Assembly (NCBI RefSeq): GCF_000384295.1
Contig: NZ_KB913037.1
Coordinates: forward strand, 1,283,975-1,347,974
DNA from: Amycolatopsis balhimycina FH 1894
GTDB taxonomy: Bacteria; Actinomycetota; Actinomycetes; Mycobacteriales; Pseudonocardiaceae
Reading direction: 5' to 3'
Length of the DNA stretch: 64,000 nt
The notes below the pieces were generated by a model. It did no database searches. It saw only the letters and a list, made by a program, of their open reading frames with translations, and was not told where the DNA came from. Both the position numbers and the translations under genes were made by a program. Below are positions 7,684 through 60,900 of the stretch, one piece after another. Every line of letters starts with the position of its first letter. The first letter of the stretch is position 1.

Positions 7684-7736
7684 GCCATGAAGGGCACCCT
7701 CATGGCTGTTATGTCCATGAGGGTGCCCTTCATGGC
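7684..7736. repeat. Long inverted repeat H1 (dispersed hairpin family), probable terminator
   Basis: Perfect 22-bp arms (7684-7705 and 7715-7736) enclose a 9-nt loop. The arm begins GCCATGAAGGGCACCCTCAT. It lies 8 bp beyond the stop of the minus-strand dehydrogenase and 58 bp upstream of the PucR start, so it probably terminates the dehydrogenase transcript. It shares the NTGARNGNCWCNYT theme with eight other hairpins in the window. Confidence 0.85.
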
Positions 7737-7743
7737 ATCGGGC

Positions 7744-9183
7744 TCAGCGCACCGGCACCGCCACGTACTGGTGCTCGAGGAACTCGTCGATGCCGATCCG
7801 GCCGCCTTCGCGGCCCAGCCCGGACTGCTTGACGCCGCCGAAGGGTGCCGCCGGGTTCGAGACCAGGCCCGTGTTGAGGCCGACCATCCCGGTCTCCAGC
7901 CGCTCGCTCACCCGCAGTGCCCGGTCCAGGGACCGGGTGAAGACGTACGCGACGAGTCCCCACGGCGTGTCGTTGGCCCGCCTGACGACCTCGTCTTCGT
8001 CGTCGAACGTGAGGATCGCCGCGACCGGGCCGAAGATCTCGGTCGCCATCAGATCACTCTCCGGAGACACCCCGGACAGCACGGTCGGCGGGTAGAACCA
8101 GCCCGGGCCCTCGGGGCTCACCCCGCCGGTGAGCACCCGCGCCCCGCGCCGGACGGCGTCGGCCACCAGCGAATCGACCTTGCGGCGGCCGGCCTCGTCG
8201 ATCAGCGGCCCGACGTCCGCCCCGGTCCGGGTACCCGGTCCGACGGCGAGCGCGCCCATCCGGCCGGCGAGCCGCGTCGCGAAGGCGTCCGCCACTTCGC
8301 GGTGGACGAAGAAGCGGTTGGCGGCGGTGCAGGCCTCGCCCATGTTGCGCATCTTGGCGGCCAGGGCGCCTTCGACGGCCTCGTCGAGGTCCGCGTCTTC
8401 GAACACGACGAACGGCGCGTTGCCGCCGAGCTCCATCGACGTGCGCACCACCTGGTCGGCGCACTGGGCCAGCAGCAGCTTGCCGACCGCGGTGGAGCCG
8501 GTGAAGGACAGCTTCCGGATCCGCCCGCCGCGCAGCAGGGGTTCGACCACCGCCGCGGCGCGGGACGTCGTGACGACGTTCAGCACGCCGTCGGGCAGGC
8601 CCGCCTCCCGCAGGATGCCGGCGAGCGCGAGGCTCGACAGCGGGGTCTGCGGCGCGGGCTTGAGCACCATGGTGCAGCCCGCGGCGACCGCGGGGCCGAT
8701 CTTGCGCGTTCCCATGGCCAGCGGGAAGTTCCACGGCGTGATCAGCAGGCAGGGCCCGACCGGACGGCGGCTGAGCAGCATCCGGTTGCGCCCGTCCGGG
8801 AGCACGCCGTAGCCGCCGCCGATGCGCACGGCTTCTTCCGAGAACCAGCGGAAGAACTCGGCGGCGTAGGCGACTTCCGCCTTGGCCTCGGCGAGCGGCT
8901 TGCCCATTTCGGTGGTGATCACCAGGGCGAGGTCGTCGGCGCGGGAGACGATGAGTTCGTGCGCACGCCGCAGGATCTCGCCGCGCTCGCGCGGAGCCGT
9001 GCGCCCCCAGGATTCCTGCGCGCGCACGGCCGCGTCTTCGGCGAGCAGCGCGTCCTTCGCGCCGGCGTCGGCGACGTGGGCGACCACCTCGCCGGTCGCC
9101 GGATCGTCGACCGGCATGGTGGTGCCGTCCACGGCGTCCAGCCACGTTCCGTCGATGAAGAGCTTGCCGGGCAGGTCGATCAT
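7744..9183 (-). CDS. gabD: NAD-dependent succinate-semialdehyde dehydrogenase (GabD-like)
   Basis: A 479-residue aldehyde dehydrogenase of the GabD/SSADH clade. Motifs are ITPWNFPLAMGTRKIGPA for cofactor binding, the Glu in MELGGNAPFVVFEDAD, and the catalytic Cys in GEACTAANRFFVHREV. The C-terminus PFGGVKQSGLGREGG is typical of the family. The ATG has AGGAG at an ideal distance. It oxidises succinate semialdehyde, or a near homologue, to the acid, the last step of GABA/putrescine breakdown. It is divergent from a class III aminotransferase, which fits a transaminase-dehydrogenase pair. The gabD symbol is a family-level call. Confidence 0.87.
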   Translation of the reverse strand: MIDLPGKLFIDGTWLDAVDGTTMPVDDPATGEVVAHVADAGAKDALLAEDAAVRAQESWGRTAPRERGEILRRAHELIVSRADDLALVITTEMGKPLAEAKAEVAYAAEFFRWFSEEAVRIGGGYGVLPDGRNRMLLSRRPVGPCLLITPWNFPLAMGTRKIGPAVAAGCTMVLKPAPQTPLSSLALAGILREAGLPDGVLNVVTTSRAAAVVEPLLRGGRIRKLSFTGSTAVGKLLLAQCADQVVRTSMELGGNAPFVVFEDADLDEAVEGALAAKMRNMGEACTAANRFFVHREVADAFATRLAGRMGALAVGPGTRTGADVGPLIDEAGRRKVDSLVADAVRRGARVLTGGVSPEGPGWFYPPTVLSGVSPESDLMATEIFGPVAAILTFDDEDEVVRRANDTPWGLVAYVFTRSLDRALRVSERLETGMVGLNTGLVSNPAAPFGGVKQSGLGREGGRIGIDEFLEHQYVAVPVR

Positions 9184-9281
9184 GGGGCTCTCCTGTGGAC
9201 GGAGGAAGTCGGGACCTTCCGAGCCTGATCGCCGGGGCGGGGCCCGGCAAGGACGGATGTGTCAGCTCCGGCGGCCGTCCG

Positions 9282-13240: not shown

Positions 13241-14792
<1,552 letters not shown>

Positions 14793-14816
14793 GTTCGCCC
14801 TCGCCACCGCGCGAAG

Positions 14817-16265
14817 TCAGCCGAGCGTCCACTGCTGGTTGCTGCCGCCGTTGCAGGTCCACAGTTCGACCGGCGCGCCGTCGGCGGTGGAAGCACCGGT
14901 GACGTCCAGGCACAGTCCGGATTGGCCGCCGGTGACCGTGCCGTTGGAATTGACGGTCCACTGCTGGTTGGCCTGGCCGTTGCAGGGCCAGGTCACGACT
15001 TTCGTGCCGGCGCTGGTGCCCTGGCCGGACGCGTCCAGGCAGAGGGTCGCGCCGCCGAGGGTGGCCGTCAGCCTGCCATCCGACGTGCGCGTCCAGGTCT
15101 GGTTCGCCTGACCGGTGCAGCCGGCGATCTGCAGCTGCGTGCCCTGCGTCGAGTTGGGCGCGGCGAGGCACTTGCCCGCCCCCACCGCGTGCAGCGGGCC
15201 GGTGCCCGTGTCGGACCCACCGGTGCCGTAGCCGGCCGCGGTGATGTTGGCCTGCACCGCGTCCTCCGTGGCGTTCGACGGGTAGCCGGACGTCATGACG
15301 CCTTCGTAGAAGGTGCCCGCGGAGCCGATGCTGTTGTCGCCGCCGGTGCCGAGGATGATGGCGCCTTCCTTGCGCATCGGGTTGTAGCCCGACACGTTCG
15401 GCCGCTTGCCGTCGTAGAACGTCGACAGGCCGCCGGACTGCGCGTTGCCACCGCGGATGGCCCAGTGGTTCGCCTCGCCCTTGATGATCGCGGTCAGGTA
15501 GCGGTGGTTGATCGTCGGGTCGTTGGCGTTGTACCCGGCGTTCACCCCGGAGTAGAGGCCGTTCTCGAGGTCGCTCATGATCCACGGGCCCGGTCCGCTG
15601 CCGTAGCCCCAGACCTTGATGTTGCCGAAGTAGATGGCCTCCATCGTGCCGTTGCCGTTGTCGCGGCTGTTGCGCTCGGCGTTGCCGTAGTCGAAGCAGC
15701 AGCCGCCGTTGTAGTGCGTGCCGTCGAAGATCGCGTACATGCCCTCCGGCTGGTCACCGGTCGCGGTGCCGGTGGCGTTGTTGTTGCGGTAGCCGGTGCC
15801 GGGAGCCACGAACACGCCGTACGCCTTCTGCCCGCCGATCGTGATCGGGGCGGCGGCCGCGTTGGCGAGGTTGTCGTAGCCGCCGGCCGCCGGTCCGGAG
15901 AACCCGCCCGGCGGCGCCTGGGTCAGGTGGTTGTTCCGGCCGGACTGGTCGTAGATGACGGTGATCAGGCAGGTCGTCCCGGCGCAGAACGAATCCTGGG
16001 CCGCGGCGTTCGCGAGGCCGCCCGCGCTCAGGACGCCGATGTCCCGCGTCGTGTTGTCCGAAGCACGCCGAACTTGGTAGAGCGAGCCGTTGTACGCGCC
16101 GTACAGCGCCCGGGTGGTGGAATGCGCGGCCACGCACGGCGTACCGCCCGCGGCGTAGAGATCGCACGGCCCCTGGGTTGCGGCCTGCGACGCGGTGGCC
16201 GTGCCGGCCACCGCCCCCGCGGCGAGCACCACCGCCGGCCACAACGTTCTCCAGCGTGCGTTCAT
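14817..16265 (-). CDS. Secreted alpha-L-arabinofuranosidase, GH54 plus CBM13
   Basis: A 482-residue secreted enzyme with a signal peptide cleaved near ATASQA. The mature start CDLYAAGGTPCVAAHSTTRA and the vicinal cysteines in GGCCFDYG are hallmarks of GH54 (AbfB) arabinofuranosidases. The nucleophile Glu lies in GTMEAIYFGN (near 207) and the acid Asp in LGTGGDNSIG (near 312), matching positions known from the fungal enzyme. Fungal AbfB carries a CBM42; here the C-terminus (from about 357) is a CBM13 with QxW repeats instead. It removes arabinose side chains from arabinoxylan or arabinan. It lies 31 bp after the GH59 gene with its own AAAGGAG, so the two are co-transcribed. Confidence 0.93.
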   Translation of the reverse strand: MNARWRTLWPAVVLAAGAVAGTATASQAATQGPCDLYAAGGTPCVAAHSTTRALYGAYNGSLYQVRRASDNTTRDIGVLSAGGLANAAAQDSFCAGTTCLITVIYDQSGRNNHLTQAPPGGFSGPAAGGYDNLANAAAAPITIGGQKAYGVFVAPGTGYRNNNATGTATGDQPEGMYAIFDGTHYNGGCCFDYGNAERNSRDNGNGTMEAIYFGNIKVWGYGSGPGPWIMSDLENGLYSGVNAGYNANDPTINHRYLTAIIKGEANHWAIRGGNAQSGGLSTFYDGKRPNVSGYNPMRKEGAIILGTGGDNSIGSAGTFYEGVMTSGYPSNATEDAVQANITAAGYGTGGSDTGTGPLHAVGAGKCLAAPNSTQGTQLQIAGCTGQANQTWTRTSDGRLTATLGGATLCLDASGQGTSAGTKVVTWPCNGQANQQWTVNSNGTVTGGQSGLCLDVTGASTADGAPVELWTCNGGSNQQWTLG

Positions 16266-16296
16266 CGGCGAACTCCTTTGTCCGGGAGGAATACGG

Positions 16297-18875
<2,579 letters not shown>

Positions 18876-19047
18876 AGCCGCCCTGCCGCCGAACAACCGC
18901 CGTTTCCGAGCACTCCCCGCGCCTTCCGGAATCGCGCGTCCCCCGGCTCGCCGACCGGACATCGGCGCAGGTCATGGCCCTGCCACGGACATCCGGCGCC
19001 CGCCGGTTCCCGCTGCGCGCAGATGTAATTTTCCTGCCGCCGGGTGA

Positions 19048-20529
<1,482 letters not shown>

Positions 20530-20553
20530 TCGGCAAGCGGGGCGCCGCGAAAC

Positions 20554-20606
20554 GTCATGAACGACTCTTTCCTGTCGTCGGACGACAGGAAAGAGTCGTT
20601 CATGAC
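20554..20606. repeat. Long inverted repeat H3 (dispersed hairpin family)
   Basis: Perfect 26-bp arms (20554-20579, 20581-20606) around a single central base make an almost continuous 53-bp palindrome; the arm contains ATGAACGACTCTTTCCTG. It lies between the convergent GH6 and GH95 stops, 25 and 11 bp away, and probably terminates both transcripts. Closely related to H5. Confidence 0.88.
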
Positions 20607-20616
20607 ATCGCAGGCG

Positions 20617-23508
20617 TCAGACAGTGGCGATCCGCCACTGCTGGTGGGCACCGCCCGTGTAAGGGTTCTGGACGATTCGCGCGCCGTCGGCGGTCGAGGA
20701 GTTTTCGGCCTCCGCGCACCAGCCGGTCCGGACGTTCACCAGCCGGCAGACGTCGCCGGAGACCGCGACGACCTGCCACCACTGGTTGTCGCCGGAGGTG
20801 TCGCTCCACTGGTCGAGCCCGGCGCCCCGGGCCGACCCGCCCGGGCTGTCGAGCACCTTCCCGCTGTTGACGCTGACGATCCGGACCGAGCCACCGGACG
20901 CGGGCAGCAGCCGCCATTGCTGGTTGACGGCCCCGGTCCACGGCCACTGGATCACCGCGGCGCCGTCGTCGCGTGAAGCGCCCTTGACGTCCAGGACCTT
21001 GCCGCTGGCCTGGTTCACGAGCCGGCACGTTCCGGTGAGCCCGAGCGTCAGTGTCGTGCGGACGTCCGCCGTCAGCGACACCGTCCGCGCGTGCGCGCCC
21101 AGCGCCGACGGCGTCACCGGCGCGGACGTGCTGATCGACGCGATCCCCCGGCGGCAGATGAGCGTGATGTCCTGGGTGACGGCCGAGGTGACGACGGCGG
21201 TGACCGTGCGCCCGGCAATGTCCCAGGACAGCGATTCGACGAGCACGCGGTTGCGGCCGCGGACGCCGGTGATGCTGCCCTTGGCCCACTGGTCGGGCAG
21301 GGCCGGCAGCAGTTCGAGGACACCCGGCCGGGTGTAGACGAGCGCCTCGGCCACCACGGCGGGGATCGCGTTCGCCGCGTCGGTGTTGTACGTCTGCAGA
21401 TCGGGGTTGTGGCTGGTCACGAGGGACCGCCACACCATGTTCCGGCCGAAGATCTTGAGCAGGTTGGCGTACACGCCGGCGCCGTCCTTCAGCCGGGCGC
21501 GCGCGAACGCCCGGTGCAGGCTGCCGTGCGCCGAGAGGTTCTCGTCGCCCCGCAGGTCGAGCGCCTTGGCGGCCTGCCCGGCCAGCGCGGGCTTGTCCTC
21601 GGGATTGATCTCGTGCAGCGGCCAGGCGCCATACAGGTGCTGTGCGTGCCGGTGGTTGTAGTTGTCGGTCAGGCCGGGCCACGACCACTCGGCCAGCGCG
21701 CCCGAACCGTTGATCGTGTACTCGGGCAGCCTGGCCAGCAACGCCTTCCACCGCTCGACGCCCTGGCCGCTCCCCTGTTCCACGCCGAGCACGCCGGCCG
21801 CGTCGATCGCGGCCTGCAGGGCGTGCTTGCCGGCCATGATGTCGCCGGTGGCGTTGATCGCGAAGTGCTGCCGGGTGCTGGCCGGGGCGTTCTCCACCGA
21901 GAAGGACGGGACGAACACCACCTTGCCCGCGGAATCCGTCTGCTTGAGGAAGTCCTCGTAGAACAGCGCCAGCTCCATCAGCGCCGGCCCGAGCTTCGTG
22001 CGCAGGAAGTCCGCGTCGCCGGTCACCTGGTAGTACTCGAGCAGCGGGTAGAGCAGCCAGTCCGCGCCGCCGGTCCAGCACTGCCCCGGGAAGTCGCTGC
22101 CGTTGAAGTGCAGCATGTGGCCGTACTCGCCGTCGGTGCGCGTCGGCGCCAGGAAACCCCGTGCCCCATAAAGCCTGTTGGCGTTGACGCGCCAGTGGGC
22201 GAGCTGGCCGAGGACCAGGTCGAAGTATCCCTGCATCGACTCGGTCAGGCTGAGGATGTTGCCGCCCGCCACCTGGAGGTTGACGTTGGCGTCGGTGGTG
22301 AAGTCGTCGGCCCAGGCGGCGTTCCAGCTCCCGGTCCACAAGCCGGTCAGCCGCGGGGGCAGCACCCCGCTGGAACTGACGAAGAGGTAGCGACCGGCGT
22401 CGTACATCCGCTCCAGCAGCGCGAGGTCGACGACCGACCGGTTGCCGTTCTGGCGGGCGATCAGTTCCGACGTCGAAAGCTTGCGGTCCGCGGCGGGAAC
22501 AGTGAGGTCCAGCCGGGATCGGTCGTACAGCGACGCGTGCCGGGGCCGATGGCGCTCGAGCAGCGTCATGTAGTCCGCCGGCAGTGCCGCCAACGCCTGC
22601 TGGAGGGCCTGGGCGTCCCAGCCGCCGGCGGTTTCGTAGCGGTCCAGCTTGGTGAGCAGCAGGACCCGGGTGGCCCGGGCCACGACGAGCGACGTGCCCG
22701 AAACCGTCACCGCGGCGTCGTTGCCGGTGACGACGACCCGCGTCACGCCCTCGTAGCCGTACGCGCCGCCGGACGGGTACGTCCCGCGGAGGTTCAGGTA
22801 GCCGTCACGGCCGGAGATGGTCGCGAAGGTCTTGTAGGACACCGAATTCGGCACGCCGTCGAGCGCGGTGTCGACCGCGATGGTGGCGTCCACCGTCCGG
22901 CCGTCGGCCGCGGCCAGCTCGTGCACGACGACCCGGTCCGCGCGCGAGACGAACAGGCGGCGACGCCACACGCCGCCGTTGGTCCAGCTGTGCTCCACCT
23001 CGCCGGAGCGGAAGTCGGTGACCCGGGCGTAGCCGGCGGCCGAGTTCATCCCCGGCGTGCTGAGCCGCAGCTGGTAGCCGGGGTGGAAAGTCTGCGTCCA
23101 GCGCAGGTTCCAGCCGCCCGCGAAGGTGGCCGCCGCGCCGCCGTAGTCGCCCGCCAGCGCCTTGGCCCTGGCGGACGCGAGCAGCCCCGACGTGACCGGC
23201 GGCAGCACGCCCCGGCTTCCGTTGGGCAGGACGAACCGGTGGTGGTCGAGCACGACCCGCTCGTCGCCGGGCGTGCCGTAGTAGACCGCGCCGTACTCGC
23301 CGTTGCCGGTGACGAAGCCGTCCGGCCACCCGGACGCCGCGGCCGGGTCGAAGACGCCCCGGTCGGGCAGGACGACTTGCGGTGGCACGGCGGCTTCGGC
23401 CGTACCGGCACCGCCGAAGAAGGCCGGGGGTAGCGCGGCGGCCCCCGCGCCCGCCGCGGCGGCGGTCAGAAAGGTACGACGGGTCAGCGGCGAACGGGGG
23501 CTCTCCAT
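20617..23508 (-). CDS. Tat-secreted GH95-like glycoside hydrolase plus CBM13
   Basis: A 963-residue protein. ATG 23508 (GGAG eight bases upstream) opens a twin-arginine signal, PLTRRTFLTAAAAGAG. The catalytic part has an N-terminal beta-sandwich (FVTGNGEYGAVYYGTPGDER) and an (alpha/alpha)6 barrel, with LHFNGSDFPGQCWTGGADW, FSVENAPAS and a base-like Asp in LQTYNTDAANAIPAV. These align by eye with the GH95 residues of the neighbouring fucosidase, but the protein is clearly divergent, so alpha-L-galactosidase or another GH95-clan activity is possible. From about residue 823 there is a CBM13 lectin domain. The open frame runs far upstream of 23508, antisense to the CE1 gene; that part is not coding. 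Confidence 0.85.
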   Translation of the reverse strand: MESPRSPLTRRTFLTAAAAGAGAAALPPAFFGGAGTAEAAVPPQVVLPDRGVFDPAAASGWPDGFVTGNGEYGAVYYGTPGDERVVLDHHRFVLPNGSRGVLPPVTSGLLASARAKALAGDYGGAAATFAGGWNLRWTQTFHPGYQLRLSTPGMNSAAGYARVTDFRSGEVEHSWTNGGVWRRRLFVSRADRVVVHELAAADGRTVDATIAVDTALDGVPNSVSYKTFATISGRDGYLNLRGTYPSGGAYGYEGVTRVVVTGNDAAVTVSGTSLVVARATRVLLLTKLDRYETAGGWDAQALQQALAALPADYMTLLERHRPRHASLYDRSRLDLTVPAADRKLSTSELIARQNGNRSVVDLALLERMYDAGRYLFVSSSGVLPPRLTGLWTGSWNAAWADDFTTDANVNLQVAGGNILSLTESMQGYFDLVLGQLAHWRVNANRLYGARGFLAPTRTDGEYGHMLHFNGSDFPGQCWTGGADWLLYPLLEYYQVTGDADFLRTKLGPALMELALFYEDFLKQTDSAGKVVFVPSFSVENAPASTRQHFAINATGDIMAGKHALQAAIDAAGVLGVEQGSGQGVERWKALLARLPEYTINGSGALAEWSWPGLTDNYNHRHAQHLYGAWPLHEINPEDKPALAGQAAKALDLRGDENLSAHGSLHRAFARARLKDGAGVYANLLKIFGRNMVWRSLVTSHNPDLQTYNTDAANAIPAVVAEALVYTRPGVLELLPALPDQWAKGSITGVRGRNRVLVESLSWDIAGRTVTAVVTSAVTQDITLICRRGIASISTSAPVTPSALGAHARTVSLTADVRTTLTLGLTGTCRLVNQASGKVLDVKGASRDDGAAVIQWPWTGAVNQQWRLLPASGGSVRIVSVNSGKVLDSPGGSARGAGLDQWSDTSGDNQWWQVVAVSGDVCRLVNVRTGWCAEAENSSTADGARIVQNPYTGGAHQQWRIATV

Positions 23509-23678
23509 CGAGGTGACTCCATTGTCGCTCGGCGGGGACAGGTGAACGAGGAGCAGGGAGACTTCACACGCTCGGACAGCATAGCCATAGCGCACCGAGA
23601 AAACGCATTCCCGAAATCCGGCACTCCGCCCGGTCCGGCGTGAAACGTACATGGACGCGCATTCGCAGCATGTGCTAC

Positions 23679-23699
23679 AACGCAACGGCGTTTCGCGAA
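23679..23699. promoter_or_regulatory. Candidate operator in GH95 / CE1 divergent region
   Basis: AACGC-AACG-GCGTT (23679-23692) and an overlapping perfect TTCGCGAA (23692-23699) lie 38 bp upstream of the CE1 start in the 228-bp divergent region. No family can be named; a shared sugar-responsive repressor is only a guess. Confidence 0.35.
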
Positions 23700-23736
23700 T
23701 CGTCGAGAATTTCCCCGCCGGCCAAAGGGGTTTCGG

Positions 23737-25110
23737 ATGTCGGGACACCGATCGTTGTTCAGAACCGTCGTGACCGCCGCGCTGCTCGTCCTGGCCGTGG
23801 GTGGCACGCCCCCGAGCGCCGGCGCGGCCACCGCGCCCGGAGCCGGCACCGCGGCGGCGGGCACGCCGAGTGCCGGCTGCGGCAAGAACCCCACGCTCAC
23901 CAGCGGCAAGCGCACCATCCAGAGCAACGGCAAGAGCCGCGACTTCATCCTGAAGATCCCCGACACCTACGACAACAGCTCTCCGCACCGGCTGGCTTTC
24001 GGGTACCACTGGCTGGGCGGCACCGCCGAGCAGGTCGCCTCGGGCGGGAGCGACGGGTACGCCTGGGCCTACTACGGCATGCAGTCGCAGTCGGGCAACA
24101 CCACGATCTTCGTGGCGCCGCAAGGCATCGGCAACGGCTGGGGCAACTCCGGCGGCGAAGACGTCACCTTCACCGACGACATGATCCGGCTCATCGAGAA
24201 CGACCTCTGCGTCGACACGACGCAGCTGTTCTCCATCGGGTTCAGCTACGGCGGCGCGATGAGCTACGCGCTCGCGTGCGCCCGGGCGACCGTCTTCCGC
24301 GCGGTCGTGGCCATCGCCGCGCCCGGCGCGATCAGCGGCTGCAGCGGTGGCACCCAGCCCATCGCGTACATGGGAATCCACGGCGTGTCGGACAACATCG
24401 GGGCCGGCCGGGGACTGCGCGACACGTTCGTCAGGAACAACGGCTGCACCCCGCAGAACGCCCCCGAACCCGCTCCGGGCAGCAAAACCCATTACCTGAC
24501 CGTCTATTCGGGCTGCCGGACCGGGTATCCGGTGGTCTGGGCGCCGTTCGACGGCGGCCACCAGCAGGGCCCGGTGGACGGCTGCACCGGCTGCGAGAGC
24601 GGCGCGAGGAGCTGGGACAAGGCCGAGATCTGGAAGTTCTTCAGCCAGTTCGACGGCAACCCGACCCCGCCGCCTCTGCCGCCGGTCCAGGTGGGCGTGA
24701 ACTACTCCCTGGTCGCCGCGCACAGCGGCAAGTCGGCGGACATCAGTGGCGCGTCCACCGCGGCGGGCGCGGCGCTGATCCAGTGGTCGTCGCACACCGC
24801 GTCGAACCAGCAGTTCGACTTCCTGGCCTCCGCCGACGGGTACTACCGGATCCGGGCCCGGCACAGCGGGCTGGTCCTGCAGGTCGCCAGTTCGGCCTCG
24901 GGGGCGGACATCACGCAGCAGCCGGACAGCGACGCGGCGAGCCAGCAGTGGAAACCGGTGGATCAGGGCGGCGACGCGGTCAGCCTGGTGAACCGGCTGA
25001 GCGGCTTGGCGATGGACGTGTGGGGCGCGTCGACGGCCGACGGGGCGCGGATCTCGCAGTACGCCGCTTCCAGCGGCGCCAACCAGCGGTTCCAGCTCCA
25101 GCGCGCCTGA
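23737..25110 (+). CDS. Secreted CE1-type esterase (feruloyl/acetyl esterase-like) plus ricin-type lectin domain
   Basis: A 457-residue secreted protein. ATG 23737 follows AAAGGGG, and the signal peptide ends near SAGAA. The esterase domain (about residues 45-305) resembles CE1/LpqC/PHB-depolymerase-like enzymes: IPDTYDNSSPHRLAFGYHW, nucleophile Ser170 in GFSYGGAM, and catalytic His in FDGGHQQGPVDGC. It probably removes feruloyl or acetyl groups from xylan. After a short Pro-rich linker, a C-terminal ricin-like domain (from about 318) is nearly a copy of the domain at the end of the next gene, with shared strings such as SGLAMDVWGASTADGARISQ. It is co-transcribed with that gene (29-bp gap). 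Confidence 0.88.
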   Translation: MSGHRSLFRTVVTAALLVLAVGGTPPSAGAATAPGAGTAAAGTPSAGCGKNPTLTSGKRTIQSNGKSRDFILKIPDTYDNSSPHRLAFGYHWLGGTAEQVASGGSDGYAWAYYGMQSQSGNTTIFVAPQGIGNGWGNSGGEDVTFTDDMIRLIENDLCVDTTQLFSIGFSYGGAMSYALACARATVFRAVVAIAAPGAISGCSGGTQPIAYMGIHGVSDNIGAGRGLRDTFVRNNGCTPQNAPEPAPGSKTHYLTVYSGCRTGYPVVWAPFDGGHQQGPVDGCTGCESGARSWDKAEIWKFFSQFDGNPTPPPLPPVQVGVNYSLVAAHSGKSADISGASTAAGAALIQWSSHTASNQQFDFLASADGYYRIRARHSGLVLQVASSASGADITQQPDSDAASQQWKPVDQGGDAVSLVNRLSGLAMDVWGASTADGARISQYAASSGANQRFQLQRA

Positions 25111-25139
25111 TCGCGGCCGCTGCCGATCGGAGGACGACG

Positions 25140-28004
25140 ATGCCGGATCTGACGCGCAGGCAGGCGATGCGGCTCGGTGCCGCGGGCGTGGGCGCCGCGC
25201 TGGTGCCCACGGCGTGGACGGCGACCGCACGGGCCGGGTCGGCCGCGCCCGCGGACGTCCGCGCGGTGAACGACCTGGCGCTGTGGTACGACAAGCCGGC
25301 GGGCACGGAGTGGCTGCGCGCGTTGCCGATCGGCAACGGCAGGCTGGGCGCCATGGTGTTCGGCAACACCGACACCGAACGCCTGCAGCTCAACGAGGAC
25401 ACGGTCTGGGCGGGCGGCCCGCACGACTACAGCAACGCCCAGGGCGCGGGGGCGCTCGCGCAGATCCGGCAGCTGGTGTTCGGGAACCAGTGGACGCAGG
25501 CGCAGTCGCTCATCGACCAGAAGATGCTCGGGACCCCCGCCGCCCAGCAGCCGTACCAGCCCGTCGGCACCCTCAGCCTCGCCCTTTCCGGCGGGAGCGG
25601 GGCGTCTTCGTACCAGCGGTGGCTCGATCTCACCACGGCCACGACGGTCGTGACCTACGTCGCGAACAACGTGCGCTACCGGCGGGAAGTGTTCGCCAGC
25701 GCGGCGGACCAGGTGATCGTCGTGCGCCTGACGGCCGAGACGCCGGGCTCGATCTCGTTCTCGGCGTCGCTGGCCACCCCGCAGCGGGCGACGGCGTCCA
25801 GCCCCGGCGCCTCGACGATCGGCCTGGACGGAGTTTCCGCGGACAGCCGCGGGATCGCCGGTTCGGTCCGGTTCCTCGCGCTGGCCGACGCCGTCGCCGA
25901 GGGCGGGACCACCAGCAGTTCCGGTGGCACGCTGCGGGTGTCCGGTGCCAACGCCGTCACCCTGCTGATCTCGGTCGGCACCAGCTACGTCGACTACCGC
26001 ACGGTGAACGGGGACTACCAGGGCATCGCCCGCACCCGGCTGAGTGCCGCCCGGGCTCTCCCCTACGACTCCCTGCGCGGCCGTCACGTGGCCGACTACC
26101 AGAAGCTGTTCGGGCGCACCACCCTCGACCTCGGCCGCACCGCGGCGGCCGACCAGCCGACCGACGTCCGGATCGCGCAGCACAACACCGCCGACGACCC
26201 GCAGTTCTCCGCCCTGCTCTTCCAGTTCGGCCGCTACCTGCTGATCTCCTCGTCGCGGCCGGGCACCCAGCCGGCCAACCTGCAGGGCATCTGGAACGAC
26301 CAGATGAACCCGTCGTGGGAGTCGAAGTACACGCTCAACGCCAACCTGCCGATGAACTACTGGCCGGCCGACGTGACCAACCTCGCCGAGTGCCACGAGC
26401 CGGTGTTCGGCATGATCGCCGACCTCGCGGTCACCGGCGCCCGCACCGCGCAGGTCGAATACGGCGCTCGCGGCTGGGTCACCCACCACAACACCGACGC
26501 GTGGCGCGGATCCTCCATTGTGGACTTCGCGCAGGCCGGCATGTGGCAGACCGGCGGGGCCTGGCTCGCCACCATGATCTGGGACCACTACCGGTTCACC
26601 GGCGACGTCGAATTCCTGCGCTCCCGTTATCCGTTGCTGAAGGGTGCCGCCCAGTTCTTCCTCGACACCCTGGTGACCGAACCGTCGCTGGGCTACCTCG
26701 TGACGAACCCGGCCAACTCGCCGGAACTGAACCACCACGCGAACGCGTCCGTGTGCGCGGGACCCACGATGGACATGCAGATCCTGCGCGACCTGTTCGA
26801 CGGCTGCGCGGGCGCGTGCCAGGTGCTGGGCGTGGACGCCGCCTTCACCGACCAGGTCAAGGCGGCCCGGCAGCGGCTGGCGCCGATGAAGGTCGGCTCG
26901 CGCGGGAACATCCAGGAATGGCTCTACGACTGGGTCGAGACCGAGCAGAACCACCGGCACATCTCGCACCTGTACGGCCTGTACCCGAGCAACCAGATCA
27001 GCAAGCGCGGCACGCCCCCGCTGTTCACCGCGGCCCGCCGGACGCTCGAGCTGCGCGGCGACGACGGTACCGGCTGGTCGCTGGCCTGGAAGATCAACTA
27101 CTGGGCGCGCATGGAGGAGGGTGGCAAGGCGCACGACCTGCTCCGGCTCCTCGTGCGGACGGACCGGCTGGCGCCCAACATGTTCGACCTGCACCCGCCG
27201 TTCCAGATCGACGGCAACTTCGGCGCGACGTCCGGCATCGCCGAGATGCTGCTGCACAGCCACAACGGCGAGCTGCACGTGCTGCCGGCATTGCCCCCTT
27301 CCTGGCCGGCCGGGAGCGTCGCGGGCCTGCGCGGGCGCGGCGGTTACACGGTCGGCGCGGCCTGGAGCGCCGGCTCGGCGACGCAGCTGACCATCACGCC
27401 CGACCGTGACGGCGACATCAAGGTGCGCAGCCGGATGTTCACCGCGGACTACGCGGTGCTCGACACGACGAGCGGCGCGGCTGTCCAGCCGGTGTCCGTC
27501 GAGCCCGACCTGGTCCGCTTCGCGGGCCAGGCAGGCCACACCTACCGCGCCACTTCCGTCGGCGGGCTGCCGCCGGTGGTGCAACCGGGGGTGAACTACC
27601 GGCTCGTCGCCCAGCACAGCGGCAAGCAGGCCGACATCAGCGGCGGCTCGACGAGTGCCGGGGCAGCCCTGATCCAGTGGGCGGCCACCAGCGGGCTCAA
27701 CCAGCAGTTCGACTTCCTCGTCTCCGACGGCGGCTTCCACCGCATCCGGTCCCGCAGCAGCGGCCTGGTCCTGCAGGTGGCGTCGACGAGCACCGGCGCC
27801 GACATCACCCAGCAACCCGACACCGGCGCGCCGGCCCAGCAGTGGCAGGTGACCGACCAGGGCGGCGGCGTGGTGAGCCTGGTCAACCGGGCGAGCGGCC
27901 TCGCCATGGACGTCTGGGGCGCCTCGACCGCCGACGGCGCCCGCATCTCGCAGTGGACGGTGACCGGCGCGGCGAACCAGCGTTTCCAGCTTCAGCGCGT
28001 GTGA
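25140..28004 (+). CDS. Tat-secreted GH95 alpha-L-fucosidase plus ricin-type lectin domain
   Basis: A 954-residue enzyme starting at ATG 25140 with GGAGG upstream and a twin-arginine signal, LTRRQAMRLGAAG. It carries the classical GH95 features: LPIGNGRLGAMVFGN, NEDTVWAGGPHDY, NLQGIWNDQMNPSWESKYT, THHNTDAWRG (His/Asn/Asp), the acid Glu in NPANSPELNH and the base Asp in FQIDGNFGATSGIAEM. GH95 enzymes invert alpha-1,2-fucosyl or alpha-L-galactosyl linkages, for example on xyloglucan side chains. The lectin domain from about residue 817 is a near duplicate of that on the CE1 esterase, suggesting module copying. Confidence 0.93.
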   Translation: MPDLTRRQAMRLGAAGVGAALVPTAWTATARAGSAAPADVRAVNDLALWYDKPAGTEWLRALPIGNGRLGAMVFGNTDTERLQLNEDTVWAGGPHDYSNAQGAGALAQIRQLVFGNQWTQAQSLIDQKMLGTPAAQQPYQPVGTLSLALSGGSGASSYQRWLDLTTATTVVTYVANNVRYRREVFASAADQVIVVRLTAETPGSISFSASLATPQRATASSPGASTIGLDGVSADSRGIAGSVRFLALADAVAEGGTTSSSGGTLRVSGANAVTLLISVGTSYVDYRTVNGDYQGIARTRLSAARALPYDSLRGRHVADYQKLFGRTTLDLGRTAAADQPTDVRIAQHNTADDPQFSALLFQFGRYLLISSSRPGTQPANLQGIWNDQMNPSWESKYTLNANLPMNYWPADVTNLAECHEPVFGMIADLAVTGARTAQVEYGARGWVTHHNTDAWRGSSIVDFAQAGMWQTGGAWLATMIWDHYRFTGDVEFLRSRYPLLKGAAQFFLDTLVTEPSLGYLVTNPANSPELNHHANASVCAGPTMDMQILRDLFDGCAGACQVLGVDAAFTDQVKAARQRLAPMKVGSRGNIQEWLYDWVETEQNHRHISHLYGLYPSNQISKRGTPPLFTAARRTLELRGDDGTGWSLAWKINYWARMEEGGKAHDLLRLLVRTDRLAPNMFDLHPPFQIDGNFGATSGIAEMLLHSHNGELHVLPALPPSWPAGSVAGLRGRGGYTVGAAWSAGSATQLTITPDRDGDIKVRSRMFTADYAVLDTTSGAAVQPVSVEPDLVRFAGQAGHTYRATSVGGLPPVVQPGVNYRLVAQHSGKQADISGGSTSAGAALIQWAATSGLNQQFDFLVSDGGFHRIRSRSSGLVLQVASTSTGADITQQPDTGAPAQQWQVTDQGGGVVSLVNRASGLAMDVWGASTADGARISQWTVTGAANQRFQLQRV

Positions 28005-28020: not shown

Positions 28021-28079
28021 AAGTCCGTGAATGGCACATCAAGGGACTCTACGTCTCTCGATGTGCCATTCACGGACTT
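28021..28079. repeat. Long inverted repeat H4 (dispersed hairpin family)
   Basis: Arms of 20 bp (28021-28040, 28060-28079) are perfect, and an inner AGGGAC/GTCTCT segment pairs with one mismatch around TCTAC. The arm contains GTGAATGGCACAT, the same core as H8 24 kb away. It follows the GH95 stop by 16 bp and probably terminates it. Confidence 0.85.
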
Positions 28080-36720: not shown

Positions 36721-37473
36721 ATGCTTTCCAGGAGGTTCTTCGCTATCGCCGCGGCGATCGTGGTGGCGTTGACCGTGAGCTCACCGGCGGCTCCGGCCAC
36801 CGCGGCGGGCAACCACACCGTCACGTTCGTCAACCGCTCCGGCCAGACGCTCTGGCTCGGCAGCACCGTGAACGCCGACCAGTCCGTCAACTTCGCGAAC
36901 CTGCCGACACTGGCGAACGGGCAGTCGGCGACCGTGACGATCCCGGAAACGTCGGCGCCCGGGCACTGGCGGGGGAAGTTCTTCGCGCGCCAGGGTTGCA
37001 CCGGCACCTCGGGCCAGAACTTCCACTGCGTGGTCGGCGACTGCGGCGTCTACGCCGACCACTGCGCGACCGGTGAACAGCCGGCCAGCCTGGCCGAGTT
37101 CAACTTCGACACGGCCGACGGCCTCGCCCCGTGGTACGACGTCAGCTACGTCAACGCGTTCTCGCTGCCGATCACGATCGAGCCGGTCAACGCGACCGTG
37201 CCGCCGGGTTCGGCGTCGTGCGGCACCGCCGGCTGCCCGGAGAACCTGCTGCCCTACTGCCCGGCCGGAGACCGCCAGTACTCCCCCGGCGGCACGCTGG
37301 TCAACTGCGTCAACCCGGACCGCGACGCGCCCACGAGCTACAGCGACACGATCAAGTCGCACTGCCCGAAGGCGTACGCCTGGTCCACACAGGACACCGA
37401 GCCGGGCAACCAGACGGTGTACCAGTGCGCCTCCTGCACCGGCTTCACGATCACCTTCCACGGCGGTTCCTGA
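36721..37473 (+). CDS. Secreted thaumatin-family protein
   Basis: A 250-residue secreted protein. ATG 36721 has GGAGG upstream and a signal peptide ends near PATAAG. It matches the thaumatin fold: HTVTFVNRSGQTLWLGS at the start, ATVTIPETSAPGHWRGKFFARQGC, a GDCGVYADHC segment, LAEFNFDTADGLAPWYDVSYVNAF (the central acidic cleft and DVS motif), YCPAGDRQYSPGG and the C-terminal PKAYAWSTQDTE. Plant members bind or cleave beta-1,3-glucan and are antifungal; bacterial copies are uncommon and of unknown role. It is next to the secreted double-psi-barrel protein. Confidence 0.9.
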   Translation: MLSRRFFAIAAAIVVALTVSSPAAPATAAGNHTVTFVNRSGQTLWLGSTVNADQSVNFANLPTLANGQSATVTIPETSAPGHWRGKFFARQGCTGTSGQNFHCVVGDCGVYADHCATGEQPASLAEFNFDTADGLAPWYDVSYVNAFSLPITIEPVNATVPPGSASCGTAGCPENLLPYCPAGDRQYSPGGTLVNCVNPDRDAPTSYSDTIKSHCPKAYAWSTQDTEPGNQTVYQCASCTGFTITFHGGS

Positions 37474-37509: not shown

Positions 37510-37568
37510 AAGTTCGTGAAGGCCACCTTGAGGAACTCTACGTTCCTCAAGGTGGCCTTCACGAACTT
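37510..37568. repeat. Long inverted repeat H6 (dispersed hairpin family)
   Basis: Perfect 27-bp arms (37510-37536, 37542-37568) around a TCTAC loop; the arm contains GTGAAGGCCACCTTGAGGAA. It is 36 bp after the thaumatin stop. H9, 23 kb away, is nearly identical in core and loop. Confidence 0.88.
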
Positions 37569-50797: not shown

Positions 50798-50843
50798 GTG
50801 AGTGACTCGTTCGCGAGCTCCCTTTCGCGAACGAGTCACTCAC
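50798..50843. repeat. Long inverted repeat H7 (dispersed hairpin family)
   Basis: Perfect 19-bp arms (GTGAGTGACTCGTTCGCGA, 50798-50816; 50825-50843) around 8 nt. It lies between the convergent stops of the GAF regulator and the GH10 gene and probably terminates both. Confidence 0.87.
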
Positions 50844-52421: not shown

Positions 52422-52484
52422 GGAAGGCCGTGAATGGCACATTGAGGGACTTGAAGTCCCTCAATGTGCCATTCACGGCCTTCC
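52422..52484. repeat. Long inverted repeat H8 (dispersed hairpin family)
   Basis: The longest member: arms of 31 bp (52422-52452, 52454-52484) with one central base, a nearly perfect 63-bp palindrome; the arm contains GTGAATGGCACATTGAGGGA. It lies 9 bp after the stop of the minus-strand fusion reductase and probably terminates it. Shares its core with H4. Confidence 0.9.
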
Positions 52485-52493: not shown

Positions 52494-54632
52494 TCACGGC
52501 TCGGCGATGTCGAGGGTGACTTCGGACAGCGGCCGGCCCACGCACGTCAGGACGTAACCGTCGGCGTTCTGCTCCGGCGTCAGGCAGTTCGGCCCGTTCA
52601 TCGCGACGTCACCGCCGCGGAGCTTCACCATGCAGTCCCCGCAGTTGCCGACCGTGCACGAGTACGGCATCGGCAGCCCCGCCGCCAGGCCGGCGTCGAG
52701 CAGGGTCTGGCCGGGCTCGACCACCACGGAACCGACCTCGTGCGTTCCGTCCTCGACGATCAGCTTCCGCGGCACGGTGGCCACGGTGATCAGGTCCGCC
52801 CCGCTGGTGTAGCGCTCGTGGCGCACGTGCTCGGCCGGCACCCCGCGCTCGGTCAGGACACTTCGGACCAGGTCCGTCAACGCCTCGGGGCCGCACACGT
52901 AGTACCGGGCCTCTTCCGACGTTCGCAGCCCGGCGAGCCAGTCGTGCACTCCGGCAGCGTCGAGCCTTCCGTGCTCCCGCGTCAGGACCGGCGTGACCGT
53001 CAGCCGCTCCGAATGCCCTTGCGCCAACCGGGAAAGCTCCTCGGCGAAGATCATCTCTTCCTCGCTGCGGCTGCTGTACAGCAGCGCGATCCGGCCGGCC
53101 GCCGGTGCCGCCAGGAGCGTGCGGATCATGCTCATCATCGGCGTGACCCCGCTGCCCGCGGCGATCAGGACGACTTCGGGCGCCGCCGCCGGGTCGACGT
53201 GGAACGCTCCCGAGGGACCGCGCACGAACAGCCGGTCGCCGGCGCGCAGGTTCCGGTGGACGTGGGTCGAGAACCGGCCGCCGTCGACGTGCTTGACCGT
53301 CACCTCCAGCCGTGGCGTCCCGGGCGCCGACGACGCCGAGTACGCGCGCCGCACCGGCCGGCCGTCGATGTCGGTCACCAGCGTGAAGAACTGCCCGGGC
53401 CGGAAGTCGAAGGCGCCCGGTCGCCCGGCGTCTTCCAGCACGAGCGTGACCGCGCCGGGTGTCTCCCGGCGCACCTCGGCGATCCGCACCTCCCGCAAGG
53501 GATTCGCCGTTTCGGGCGCGACGGCGGAACGCGGTGACCCGAGCTCGACGTCCTCGTAGCCCTCCTTCCGCAACCCGGACCGGTACGCGCGGTTCATCAC
53601 CGGCCGCAGCATCCGGCCGATCCCCGGGACCCTCGTGAGGCCCTTGAGCAGGCGGGCGAGCAGACCGGCGCCCGCCAGGTTCGCGGCGAGGTGGTTGCCG
53701 GCCACGACCATCAGATCCGGCACCGCGCCGGGACGCTCCGCGGTCCACACGCGCGAGCGTGTCAGGGCTTCACTGGCCGTCACTTCGGCGTGTTCGACGT
53801 CGACGAGCAGCGCCGCGTGCGGCGGTGTCCCCCGCAACGCCATCGTCTCAAGCAACGCGGGGTCGTCGGTGATCGAGCCCCGGCCCCGCACGTGCAGCAC
53901 CCCGGTCCGGCCCGGAACGAGGGCGGCGAAGGAAAGCCGGTCGTCCCGCAGGAGGTTGTGCAGGCTGTCCGCGCGCTTGTTGCCCTTCCGGTCCGGGATG
54001 ACGAGCGTGCGGCCGTCGAGGATCCGCGCGACGGCCTGCCGGTCGCCGCGCGGGCTGGTGTCAGCGCCACCGGAGTCGTCCCAAGTGGACAGAGCGAGAA
54101 ACGGCGCGGTGGCGAGGAACTCCGCCACGCCGGGACCGCACAACGGGCCCGCTCCCCCGACCTCGGGGATCGGCCCGGCGGCGACCGGCGGTTGCCAGAG
54201 GCGGGAGCGGATGACGGCCTGCGCGCAGTGCACGTACGCCTCTTCGACGTCCACGAACGTCTCGGCTCCCTTCCGCTTGGCCACGGAACCGTTGACGCGC
54301 AACGTTTCCCCGACGCCCGGCAGCAGGAAGACGAACGAGACCGGGCCGTGCGCCTCGCCGTCGGGGAGGGTGAACGACATCCGCGTCGGCGAGTGAACGC
54401 GGACGAACCCCGGCGTGCCGCCGATGAACGTCGTGCGGCTGACGCCGCCGGCATCGCGGTAGCCGAAGCCCGCGAGCGGGCACTGCGCCAGGACGGCCCG
54501 GCAGCCTTCGTCGAGAGTGGCGATCTGCTTCAGCATGATCACCGACGGCGGCCGCCCCAGGATCGCCTCGACCTCGCCTGCCGTCTCCAGGCGCGGCAGC
54601 GCCCGCACCGGGGTATTGTTTTCGCAGCTCAC
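52494..54632 (-). CDS. Fused flavin split-barrel / ferredoxin reductase / [2Fe-2S] ferredoxin protein
   Basis: A 712-residue multidomain protein starting at GTG 54632. Residues 1-330 contain FMN-binding split-barrel (pyridoxamine-phosphate-oxidase-like) sequence, including LSTWDDSGGADTSPRGDR and IPDRKGNKRADSLHNLL. An FNR-type module follows, with the FAD site RRAYSASSAPG (near 430) and NAD site AAGSGVTPMMSMIRTLL. A C-terminal plant-type [2Fe-2S] ferredoxin (from about 625) has ligands in PYSCTVGNCGDCMVKL and VLTCVG. It should pass electrons from NAD(P)H through FAD to the iron-sulfur cluster; the split barrel may bind flavin or F420. Divergent from a TetR regulator. Confidence 0.9.
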   Translation of the reverse strand: MSCENNTPVRALPRLETAGEVEAILGRPPSVIMLKQIATLDEGCRAVLAQCPLAGFGYRDAGGVSRTTFIGGTPGFVRVHSPTRMSFTLPDGEAHGPVSFVFLLPGVGETLRVNGSVAKRKGAETFVDVEEAYVHCAQAVIRSRLWQPPVAAGPIPEVGGAGPLCGPGVAEFLATAPFLALSTWDDSGGADTSPRGDRQAVARILDGRTLVIPDRKGNKRADSLHNLLRDDRLSFAALVPGRTGVLHVRGRGSITDDPALLETMALRGTPPHAALLVDVEHAEVTASEALTRSRVWTAERPGAVPDLMVVAGNHLAANLAGAGLLARLLKGLTRVPGIGRMLRPVMNRAYRSGLRKEGYEDVELGSPRSAVAPETANPLREVRIAEVRRETPGAVTLVLEDAGRPGAFDFRPGQFFTLVTDIDGRPVRRAYSASSAPGTPRLEVTVKHVDGGRFSTHVHRNLRAGDRLFVRGPSGAFHVDPAAAPEVVLIAAGSGVTPMMSMIRTLLAAPAAGRIALLYSSRSEEEMIFAEELSRLAQGHSERLTVTPVLTREHGRLDAAGVHDWLAGLRTSEEARYYVCGPEALTDLVRSVLTERGVPAEHVRHERYTSGADLITVATVPRKLIVEDGTHEVGSVVVEPGQTLLDAGLAAGLPMPYSCTVGNCGDCMVKLRGGDVAMNGPNCLTPEQNADGYVLTCVGRPLSEVTLDIAEP

Positions 54633-59241: not shown

Positions 59242-60824
59242 ACCTCGTCCTCTGCGCCGACACCGTCCACACACTGGCCGGCGACGACCGGCCGGTCCAG
59301 GCGATCGCGATCACCGGCGGCGTCGTCACCGCCGTCGGCACCCGCCGGGACGTCCGCGACTGGCGCGGTCCCGGGACCGAAGTCGTCGACCTGGGCGGCG
59401 CCACCGTGACCCCCGGCCTGATCGACGCGCACACGCACCCGGTGATGGGCGTGCAGCTCACCGCCGACGTCGACCTGTCCGCCGCCCGCTCCCTCGACGA
59501 GGTGGAGCACCTCCTCGCCACCGCGGCCGCCGGCCGGGCACCGGACGAATGGCTCCAGGCGTGGGGCCTGGACCCCAACGTCTTCGGCGACCGGCCGGTC
59601 ACCAGCGCCCCGATCGAGGCGGCGGTCGGTGGCCGTCCCGCGTTCGTGCGGCTGTTCGACGCCCACTCCGCCCTGGCCACCCCGGCCGCGCTGCGGATCG
59701 CCGGCGTCGACGGCCCCCGCCGGTTCGCCCAGCGCTCGAGCGTCGTCTGCGACGAGGACGGCCGGCCGACCGGCCTGCTGCTGGAGGCCGCCGCCATGGA
59801 CCTGGTCACCGCGCACGTCCCCCGGCAACCGGTCGCCGACCGGGCGGCCCGGCTGCGCGCGCTGCTCGGCGAGATGGCCGCCACCGGGCTCACCGGCGGC
59901 CACGTCATGGACCTGCTCGGCGACAGCGCGGAGGTGGTCGCCGCCGCCGAAGACCTCGGCGACCTCCCGCTGCGCCTGCGGTTCGCCCCCTGGTGCGAAC
60001 CCGGCGCCGAGGCGGAACAGCTGGCCGAGCTGATCGCCCTCCAGGGCCGCGGCGGCCGCCGCTGGGAGATCGGCGGCGTGAAGTTCTTCATCGACGGCAC
60101 GATCGACAACGGCACCGCCTGGCTGGAAGAACCCGACGCCCACGGCGAATCGACCGACAGCTTCTGGACCGACCCCGCCGCCTACACGAAAGCCGTGCAC
60201 GTGCTCGCCGCGGCCGGGGTCCCGACCGCGACCCACGCCATCGGCGACGCCGCCGTCCGCTACGCCCTCGACACCCTCGACGGACTCGACAGCCCCGCGG
60301 CGGCACCGCACCGCATCGAGCACATCGAGACGCTGCCGACCGAGCTGATCGGCCGGTTCCGGCGCCAGGGCGTCGTCGCGAGCATGCAACCGGCCCACAC
60401 CCACTTCACCCGCGCCGACCACACCGACAACTGGTCGTCCCGCCTCGGACACGAACGCGCCGACCGGGGGTGGCGCTGCCGCGACCTGCGCGACGCGGGT
60501 GTCCCGGTCGTCCTCGGCTCCGACTGGCCGATCGCCCCCTTCGACCCGCGCGGCACCCTCGCCGCCGCCCAGCTACGCCGCCCGGCGGGCGAACCGGAGA
60601 TCCCGCCGGTGCAGCCGCACCAGGGCCTGACGCCGCTGATGGCCCTGGAGGGCTACACGTCACTCGCCGCCGCGGCCGCGGGTGCCATCGGCGGGATCAC
60701 GATCGGCGCACGGGCCGACCTCACGGCTTTCACGCTCGACCCGCTGCGCACGGCCCCGGACGAGCTGGCCGACGCACCGATCGCGATGACCATCGTCGAC
60801 GGCACGATCATCCACCGCCGCTGA
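59238..60824 (+). CDS. YtcJ-like metal-dependent amidohydrolase
   Basis: A 528-residue amidohydrolase of the YtcJ/NfdA branch. GTG 59238 overlaps the permease stop by four bases. Metal-ligand motifs are visible in order: TPGLIDAHTHPVMG, the carboxylated-Lys segment GGVKFFIDGTIDNGTA, TATHAIGDAA, APHRIEHIE and LGSDWPIAPFDP. Family members hydrolyse N-substituted formamides and other amides; the exact substrate is unknown. A large bidirectional hairpin (H9) lies just beyond its stop. Confidence 0.9.
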   Translation: MNLVLCADTVHTLAGDDRPVQAIAITGGVVTAVGTRRDVRDWRGPGTEVVDLGGATVTPGLIDAHTHPVMGVQLTADVDLSAARSLDEVEHLLATAAAGRAPDEWLQAWGLDPNVFGDRPVTSAPIEAAVGGRPAFVRLFDAHSALATPAALRIAGVDGPRRFAQRSSVVCDEDGRPTGLLLEAAAMDLVTAHVPRQPVADRAARLRALLGEMAATGLTGGHVMDLLGDSAEVVAAAEDLGDLPLRLRFAPWCEPGAEAEQLAELIALQGRGGRRWEIGGVKFFIDGTIDNGTAWLEEPDAHGESTDSFWTDPAAYTKAVHVLAAAGVPTATHAIGDAAVRYALDTLDGLDSPAAAPHRIEHIETLPTELIGRFRRQGVVASMQPAHTHFTRADHTDNWSSRLGHERADRGWRCRDLRDAGVPVVLGSDWPIAPFDPRGTLAAAQLRRPAGEPEIPPVQPHQGLTPLMALEGYTSLAAAAAGAIGGITIGARADLTAFTLDPLRTAPDELADAPIAMTIVDGTIIHRR

Positions 60825-60851
60825 GACCGGCAAGCCAAGCCGTCGTAACGC

Positions 60852-60900
60852 CGTGAAGGCCACCTTCAGGAACTCTATGTTCCTCAAGGTGGCCTTCACG
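60852..60900. repeat. Long inverted repeat H9 (dispersed hairpin family)
   Basis: Arms of 22 bp (60852-60873, 60879-60900) with one mismatch around TCTAT; AACG/CGTT extends the pairing outward. The core is GTGAAGGCCACCTTCAGGAA, nearly the same as H6. It lies between the convergent stops of the amidohydrolase and the aminotransferase. Confidence 0.87.

Follow-up and report, generated by a model that had tools for sequence, protein, structure and literature searches.

Doublets of repetitive extragenic palindromic (REP) sequences that form hairpins, known as REPINs, have been described in Pseudomonas fluorescens, where they are mobilised by REP-associated tyrosine transposases (RAYTs), and an alternative clover fold has been proposed for them (PMC3116915). 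CGTC-tagged REPs have been described in five phyla, with no mention of Actinobacteria in that text (PMC3733652), and a 2025 REP survey, as far as its accessible part goes, tabulates three Actinomycetota species, Amycolatopsis not among them (PMC12306157). In Streptomyces clavuligerus, Term-seq placed I-shaped, that is U-lacking, 3'-end hairpins at transcript ends (PMC8269248). Here we describe a family of long hairpins in Amycolatopsis balhimycina FH 1894, nine of which (H1 to H9) lie in a 64,000-nucleotide stretch of its genome (NZ_KB913037.1, positions 1,283,975 to 1,347,974; hereafter the window). No report of these elements in Amycolatopsis was found by a literature search that left subscription papers mostly outside its reach.

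The elements form a dispersed palindromic repeat of several families, which share a recurrent inner geometry and are tied to gene 3' ends; species differ at the same slots, and the RAYT gene is absent from the 36 Amycolatopsis genomes searched. On balance, we think it probable that they are mobile, non-autonomous, REPIN-like elements that were recruited as bidirectional U-poor 3'-end hairpins and are moved by an enzyme other than a RAYT. They may end or protect transcripts, a role considered for the U-lacking hairpins of S. clavuligerus (PMC8269248), and transposition would account for their spread. The original prediction, made from the letters of the window, had proposed a repeat family at gene 3' ends of terminator, mRNA-stability, DNA-binding or mobile origin, a frame that the further copies, their relatedness and their enrichment at 3' ends support. 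The inner dyads with their fixed 30-nt spacing, the further hairpin families and the different families in one and the same slot are new beyond it.

The repeat unit is about 59 nt long and has a fixed 45-nt core. Identity within subfamilies is 84-94% in the core and drops to background level about 7 nt outside it, the flanks beyond being unrelated; with relatedness so sharply bounded over about 59 nt, the copies are more alike than random terminators. In an alignment of 67 copies from the A. balhimycina genome (65 distinct; one overlapping copy of 68 was left out), the long hairpin was 89.6% paired, both sides had changed in 22 of 27 pairs, and covariation reached 0.446 as compared to 0.147 in shuffled alignments and at most 0.10 with the partners slid. 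Each arm in turn contains a short dyad of its own, with a 6-bp stem and a 3-nt loop (here TGAANG-NCN-CNTTCA or near), whose half-sites TGAA and TTCA are almost invariant across these copies. The inner dyads were 85.5% paired, with a covariation of 0.156 versus 0.052 in shuffles, all of these values being counted over copies related by descent and not over independent events. A dyad position that varies freely was paired 63 out of 84 times in 42 copies from six genomes of three other genera (15 hand-picked copies of the same genus were left out), where shuffling gave a mean of 26.9 and a maximum of 39.

This build recurs in hairpins of other sequence. Single-linkage clustering, which under-splits the data (cluster 0 merges several subfamilies), placed 183 of 215 long hairpins with an arm score of at least 15 in 20 repeat clusters and left 32 singletons. 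Different species carry different hairpin sequences of identical build. Of the 183 family hairpins (2.0 Mb from 18 genomes), 89 had a triloop dyad by a strict criterion (4 bp or more), and in 87 of these 89 the dyad centres were exactly 30 nt apart, a pattern seen in eight clusters; shuffled arms had a dyad in 7% and the 30-nt spacing in 0.2%. A further hairpin family of the A. balhimycina genome, CGTGATTGAGGCCGTAACTCGCGAGTTACGGCCTCAATCACG and its variants (L134:17508, L117:7591, L102:3906), lacks the 30-nt dyads. In G003, CTGGCTGCCCGG-like units are arrayed in tandem next to a TGAATGAGTC element; they lie between convergent genes, in the intergenic region orthologous to L127:3085-3202 (L138). 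Element pairs lie close together or abut in one intergenic region at L109:6700-6877, L130:14431-14552 and L135:13619-13761, recalling REPIN clusters, and at L135:3726-3841 an element has both ends intact, with unrelated sequence in place of its centre or within it. Insertion of a repeat into the loop of an existing terminator was considered and rejected, as the flanks of 68 elements were, past offset 7 outside the core, no more complementary to each other than the flanks of different elements.

The A. balhimycina genome consists of one contig of 10,858,503 bp. A strict pattern, in which the theme is doubled with a gap left free over 8-36 nt, found 351 copies there and the reversed pattern, used as a control, found none, so that the proposed lineage-specific repeat family does have further copies across the genome; 346 of the 351 were retained with the gap fixed at 19 nt, which defines the 45-nt core. 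A covariance model built from H1-H9 was run on evenly spaced stretches totalling 800 kb and detected 32 copies there (>33 bits, both strands combined), extrapolating to roughly 430 copies per genome. The predicted density of about one per 7 kb holds for the window only, the genome-wide value being about one per 31 kb with the strict pattern (351 in 10.86 Mb) and one per 25 kb with the covariance model. A uniform distribution along the chromosome was rejected, because 22 of the 32 sampled copies cluster at 3.88-7.95 Mb, within 16 of 40 stretches.

Within the genus, 52 of 60 Amycolatopsis genomes (A. balhimycina included) contain at least one strict copy, with a range of 0-346 and none in the control. 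At the family level matches were patchy, occurring in 77 of 297 genomes and 23 of 46 genera (control 0), and outside the family a single one of 24 genomes of the order matched, with 2 copies. Genome G017, which is about 91% identical to A. balhimycina in the compared region (L136, L127), has 0 strict copies versus 346, which may reflect fast expansion or loss. The 45-nt strict pattern misses H1, H4, H7 and other families, and a count of zero therefore does not mean that a genome is free of hairpins: the covariance model gave 39, 17, 20 and 12 matches (both strands) in G017, G004, G011 and G013, all without strict copies, and at least 150 each in A. balhimycina, G003 and G005.

The position of the copies relative to genes is far from random. 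Among the 29 classifiable copies of the evenly spaced sample (3 edge copies of 32 were left out, and some neighbouring copies share an intergenic region), 19 were convergent, 8 tandem and 2 divergent, a convergent excess with p=5e-9 against the share of intergenic bases and p=8e-8 against the share of gene pairs. The 183 family hairpins comprised 113 in convergent, 54 in tandem and 2 in divergent context, with 9 inside called genes and 5 at edges. Tandem copies lie a median of 13 nt past the upstream stop and 101 nt ahead of the next start, and 48 of the 54 are closer to the stop than to the next start. Copies are thus enriched at gene 3' ends and between convergent genes, and a stable stem-loop close behind a stop codon, as is characteristic of I-shaped 3'-end hairpins, was found. 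A few copies are at negative distances from a neighbouring gene and, on reading, appear to provide its stop codon. The loop orientation of 42 tandem copies of odd length was even (21:21), and a strand-specific function was rejected for lack of any such bias.

In the window itself, the scan scores of H1-H9 were 14-31, as compared to a maximum of 12 across four order-2 Markov simulations, and the theme that the arms had been said to share, TGAANGNCNCNTT, indeed occurs 14 times where 0.15 are expected. A search of the window against Rfam at the gathering score gave 0 matches. The nine elements are listed below, with gene coordinates from a home-made open reading frame and codon-usage caller whose stops are dependable and whose starts are less so.

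H1, 7684-7736, no strand assigned: TGAAGGGCACCCTCA-type, 22-bp perfect arms; tandem, 7 nt past the stop of an aldehyde dehydrogenase gene (7744-9183, minus strand).
H2, 14740-14792, no strand assigned: TGAATGACTCATTCA-type, 21-bp perfect arms; tandem, 24 nt past the stop of an arabinofuranosidase gene (14817-16232, minus strand).
H3, 20554-20606, no strand assigned: TGAACGACTCTTTC-type, 26-bp perfect arms; convergent, stops 24 and 10 nt away.
H4, 28021-28079, no strand assigned: TGAATGGCACAT-type, 2 mismatches; tandem, 16 nt past the stop of a GH95 gene (25140-28004, plus strand).
H5, 36611-36663, no strand assigned: TGAACGACTC-type, 26-nt arms with 3 mismatches; tandem, 94 nt past a stop, with an ordinary GC-rich hairpin intervening.
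H6, 37510-37568, no strand assigned: TGAAGGCCACCTTGAGGAAC-type, 27-bp perfect arms; tandem, 36 nt past the stop of a thaumatin-family gene (36721-37473, plus strand).
H7, 50798-50843, no strand assigned: divergent member (TGAGTGACTCGTTC), 19-bp perfect arms; convergent, stops 19 and 12 nt away.
H8, 52422-52484, no strand assigned: TGAATGGCACATTGAGGGAC-type, 31-bp perfect arms; tandem, 9 nt past the stop of a gene at 52494-54632 (minus strand).
H9, 60847-60905, no strand assigned: TGAAGGCCACCTT-type, 2 mismatches; convergent, stops 22 and 25 nt away.

All nine inverted repeats were present where they had been predicted, H9 being longer than described. Their proposed location directly behind a stop codon applies to all except H5, from which the stop is 94 nt away with another hairpin in between. 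They had also been described as often lying between convergent genes; in the window three are convergent (H3, H7, H9) and six tandem. H5 is the weakest of the nine with a score of 14, its ordinary neighbour scoring 15; the latter is a perfect 15-bp GC-rich hairpin at 36524-36555, 7 nt past the stop of a 117-aa DPBB gene and directly before H5, and is a candidate for an ordinary terminator. H7 falls outside the strict pattern and was part of the training set of the covariance model. H2-H4 are interspersed in a run of polysaccharide hydrolase genes (13241-28004) encoding a glycoside hydrolase (GH) of family GH10, an arabinofuranosidase, a GH6 enzyme with a CBM2 module and two GH95 enzymes with ricin-type lectin domains.

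In order to follow the elements between related species, orthologous slots were compared between G020 and G008 (94.2% identity) and between A. balhimycina and G003 (89.5% identity), leaving out gene pairs that abut or overlap (60 tandem and 5 convergent in the former comparison; 53 tandem, 6 convergent and 1 divergent in the latter). Among the 3' slots with a hairpin in at least one of the two genomes, only 9 of 31 had a family common to G020 and G008 and only 2 of 21 one common to A. balhimycina and G003. Orthologous divergent regions contained hairpins in 0/32 and 0/26 cases. The convergent slot own220 18644 is taken by a family element in A. balhimycina and by one of another family in G020; G009 has an ordinary hairpin there, and G008 and G012 have imperfect ones below the scan threshold (by eye); in G003 and G005 the stops meet or overlap and leave no intergenic space. 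At slot 45331 the elements of A. balhimycina, G020 and G008 all differ from one another; G009 and G012 have ordinary hairpins, and G003 and G005 none.

Judged by these sequence comparisons, clear gains are few, and the clearest candidates are two. At L127:8678 the stop in A. balhimycina is followed first by an element and then by what is left of a GC-rich hairpin; this hairpin is whole in G017 and G003 and has no sequence in common with the element. The second candidate is a TGTTCCCGATG element present at its site in G020 only and absent in the other 7 of 8 aligned relatives. Copies of A. balhimycina at sites where the G003 stops abut or overlap were first taken as gains, a reading that was withdrawn after G005, G020, G008, G009 and G012 had been added. 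Element-free sites in sisters, which the original prediction had suggested looking for, thus do exist at the species level, but several of them look like losses in G003 and G005. At L127:14819-14877 and L127:16948-16998, elements of A. balhimycina occupy places at which relatives have extra sequence that includes a gene. At one of these sites the extra gene is PNPOx-like (PF01243) in G017, G003 and G005, above the Pfam cut-off in G005 only; at the second it encodes an alpha/beta hydrolase (PF00561) in G017 and G005, with similar sequence in G003. Elements may here mark the scars of gene loss, or the reverse may apply.

In the explanation that we favour, a copy of about 59 nt would represent two short dyads placed head to head, with 30 nt from centre to centre; a single strand could then fold either as one long hairpin of 20-27 bp or as two mini-hairpins (the clover). 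As RNA, the long hairpin would serve as a U-poor (I-shaped) terminator or protect the 3' end, in either orientation. The element would be copied in trans by an enzyme, not one of the Y1_Tnp RAYTs, that recognises the pair of mini-hairpins. Copies in promoters or genes would be selected away and those at 3' ends tolerated or even useful; older hairpins would later be lost, and the slot would change hands between species. A bolder version, which we advance only tentatively, would see in the elements a new class of non-autonomous mobile terminators in this actinomycete family. Their mover, an enzyme other than a RAYT, would recognise pairs of triloop mini-hairpins at a distance of exactly 30 nt; the elements would insert at transcript 3' ends or survive only there, and a genus would replace a large part of its terminators about as fast as its species arise.

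A number of observations weigh against mobile REPIN-like elements. The first concern the enzyme. The Y1_Tnp/RAYT domain (PF01797) had 0 matches in 36 Amycolatopsis genomes (A. balhimycina and 35 others), while the same search was positive in 5 of 14 control genomes and 3 of 24 genomes of other genera; the RAYT-like transposase that the original prediction had suggested looking for is thus missing from these genomes, and mobilisation by this family was rejected. The presence of reverse transcriptase (RVT_1) does not track copy number in 40 genomes: G016, G022, G030 and G343 have no RVT_1 match, yet 185, 181, 136 and 150 strict copies, whereas G013 has 9 RVT_1 matches and no strict copy, and mobilisation by this route is not supported. 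For IS91-type Y2_Tnp neither the 40 genomes nor the control gave any match, which speaks neither for nor against this route. As to carriers, viral contigs had no match to the strict pattern, for which reason phage carriage was rejected, and the one hairpin family searched in plasmids gave no match.

Further points concern the sites and the build. No insertion within a species was caught, the genomes compared being species-level, and inspection of the differences by eye revealed no target-site duplication, flanks having diverged and polarity being often ambiguous. Three sites with an element in A. balhimycina only were checked with outgroups; as most outgroups also have a hairpin there, absence in G003 and G005 is more simply read as loss. 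Both clear gains adjoin an existing, unrelated hairpin. In the slot after the stop at about L144:17822 (L144-L152), nine species of the G020 clade keep the outer dyads AGCAAGGGACC...GGTCCCTTGCT around one of three unrelated inner stems, which looks like exchange rather than insertion. Seven of 28 convergent slots are free of hairpins in both G020 and G008, and nine of the 183 family hairpins lie within called genes. There is no U-tract, the proportion of T in the 8 nt past the hairpin being 0.21 versus a background of 0.14 (n=167). Moreover, 94 of the 183 family hairpins have no strict inner dyad, including most AGCAAGG, GTTTAGTCC and GTGATTGAGG hairpins; two of five dyad measures fall within the shuffles (doubly changed pairs were reached in 53 of 500, pair types in 476 of 500); and because related copies inherit changes together, the dyad and covariation counts are not independent.

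Several of these points would be expected under a rival explanation that we regard as rather unlikely but as the strongest competitor, namely that ordinary U-poor terminators have come to resemble one another through ectopic gene conversion, or through template switching from palindrome to palindrome, without transposition or any dedicated enzyme. Recombination would spread successful sequences, and selection for 3'-end hairpins would keep their arms paired. The function-like location of the copies, the other hairpins, including ordinary ones, that relatives have in the same slots, the inner stem exchanged within conserved outer dyads in nine species, the existing hairpins beside the clear gains and the lack of a PF01797 transposase in the 36 genomes are all in line with it. 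However, the hairpin beside the gain at L127:8678 is unrelated in sequence, so there is no obvious substrate for homologous conversion at this site. In addition, a terminator needs neither a 30-nt spacing of dyads nor dyad positions that vary and yet remain paired.

These paired positions also bear on a second rival, which we consider improbable: that a protein acting between convergent genes, be it a nucleoid protein, a topoisomerase or a boundary protein, binds the two dyads in duplex DNA, where they are about three helical turns apart, and that the hairpin is incidental. Positive supercoils gather between convergent genes, and the enrichment there, the 30-bp spacing and the nearly invariant, dyad-symmetric TGAA/TTCA half-sites of the A. 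balhimycina copies would suit such a protein. Base-variable dyad positions mostly remain paired, however, and this speaks for pairing within one strand and against the reading of bases in a duplex; some relatives have motif-free ordinary hairpins in the same slots, and the large majority of tandem copies (48/54) sit closer to the upstream stop. DNA uptake signals, which occur as inverted pairs in terminators in Neisseria and Haemophilus, where they would accumulate by biased transformation (one study reportedly links terminators and DNA uptake), share with the elements the short sequence, the inverted pairs at 3' ends and the many copies, but are a most improbable explanation given several sequence families per genome, rapid change between sisters and a fixed 45-nt composite unit that is unexpected for a short uptake word.

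Terminators are usually regarded as locally evolved. With strict copies ranging from 0 to 346 within Amycolatopsis and only 9 of 31 slots in common at about 94% identity, terminator turnover, and possibly an origin of terminators from mobile palindromes, becomes directly testable in this genus. Should the elements prove mobile, some mobiliser that is not a RAYT must exist, and the 30-nt geometry of the dyads provides a precise handle for tracing it, as a probe or as a model. The elements may also serve actinomycete engineering, as candidate bidirectional 3'-end parts of natural origin.

Among known systems, miniature inverted-repeat transposable elements (MITEs) are likewise short, non-autonomous, rich in copies and built of inverted repeats; the target-site duplications of MITEs were not noticed by eye at the sites that differ between species, though flanks there have diverged and polarity is often ambiguous. 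Similar to CGTC-tagged REPs, the elements are short palindromic repeats that form large hairpins as dimers and have no known dedicated transposase (PMC3733652), but CGTC at the 5' or GACG at the 3' side is present in only 12 of 68 copies (farther out, CGTC 6 times on the left and GACG twice on the right). They resemble the I-shaped hairpins of GC-rich bacteria as stem-loops without a U-rich tract; the accessible part of the S. clavuligerus study does not present those as dispersed near-identical repeats (PMC8269248), whereas here 183 of 215 fall into 20 clusters. The closest resemblance in build is to REPINs, with which they have in common two inverted short palindromes able to fold into a long hairpin or a clover, arms with compensatory changes, an extragenic location, several families per genome, and singlets, doublets and tandem clusters (PMC3116915). 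Two inverted REP-like palindromes forming a hairpin, dispersed and extragenic in high copy number, were thus found as in REPINs; since two defining features of the REPIN/RAYT system are lacking, the RAYT gene being absent from the 36 genomes of the genus and the GTAG tag rare (only 2 of 68 copies have GTAG to the left or CTAC to the right of the core, at up to 12 nt from it), we do not class the element as a REPIN but describe it as built like one. Unlike REPINs, the Amycolatopsis elements are bound to stop codons and convergent genes, and their hairpins with a strict triloop dyad keep, in 87 of 89 cases, a spacing of exactly 30 nt.

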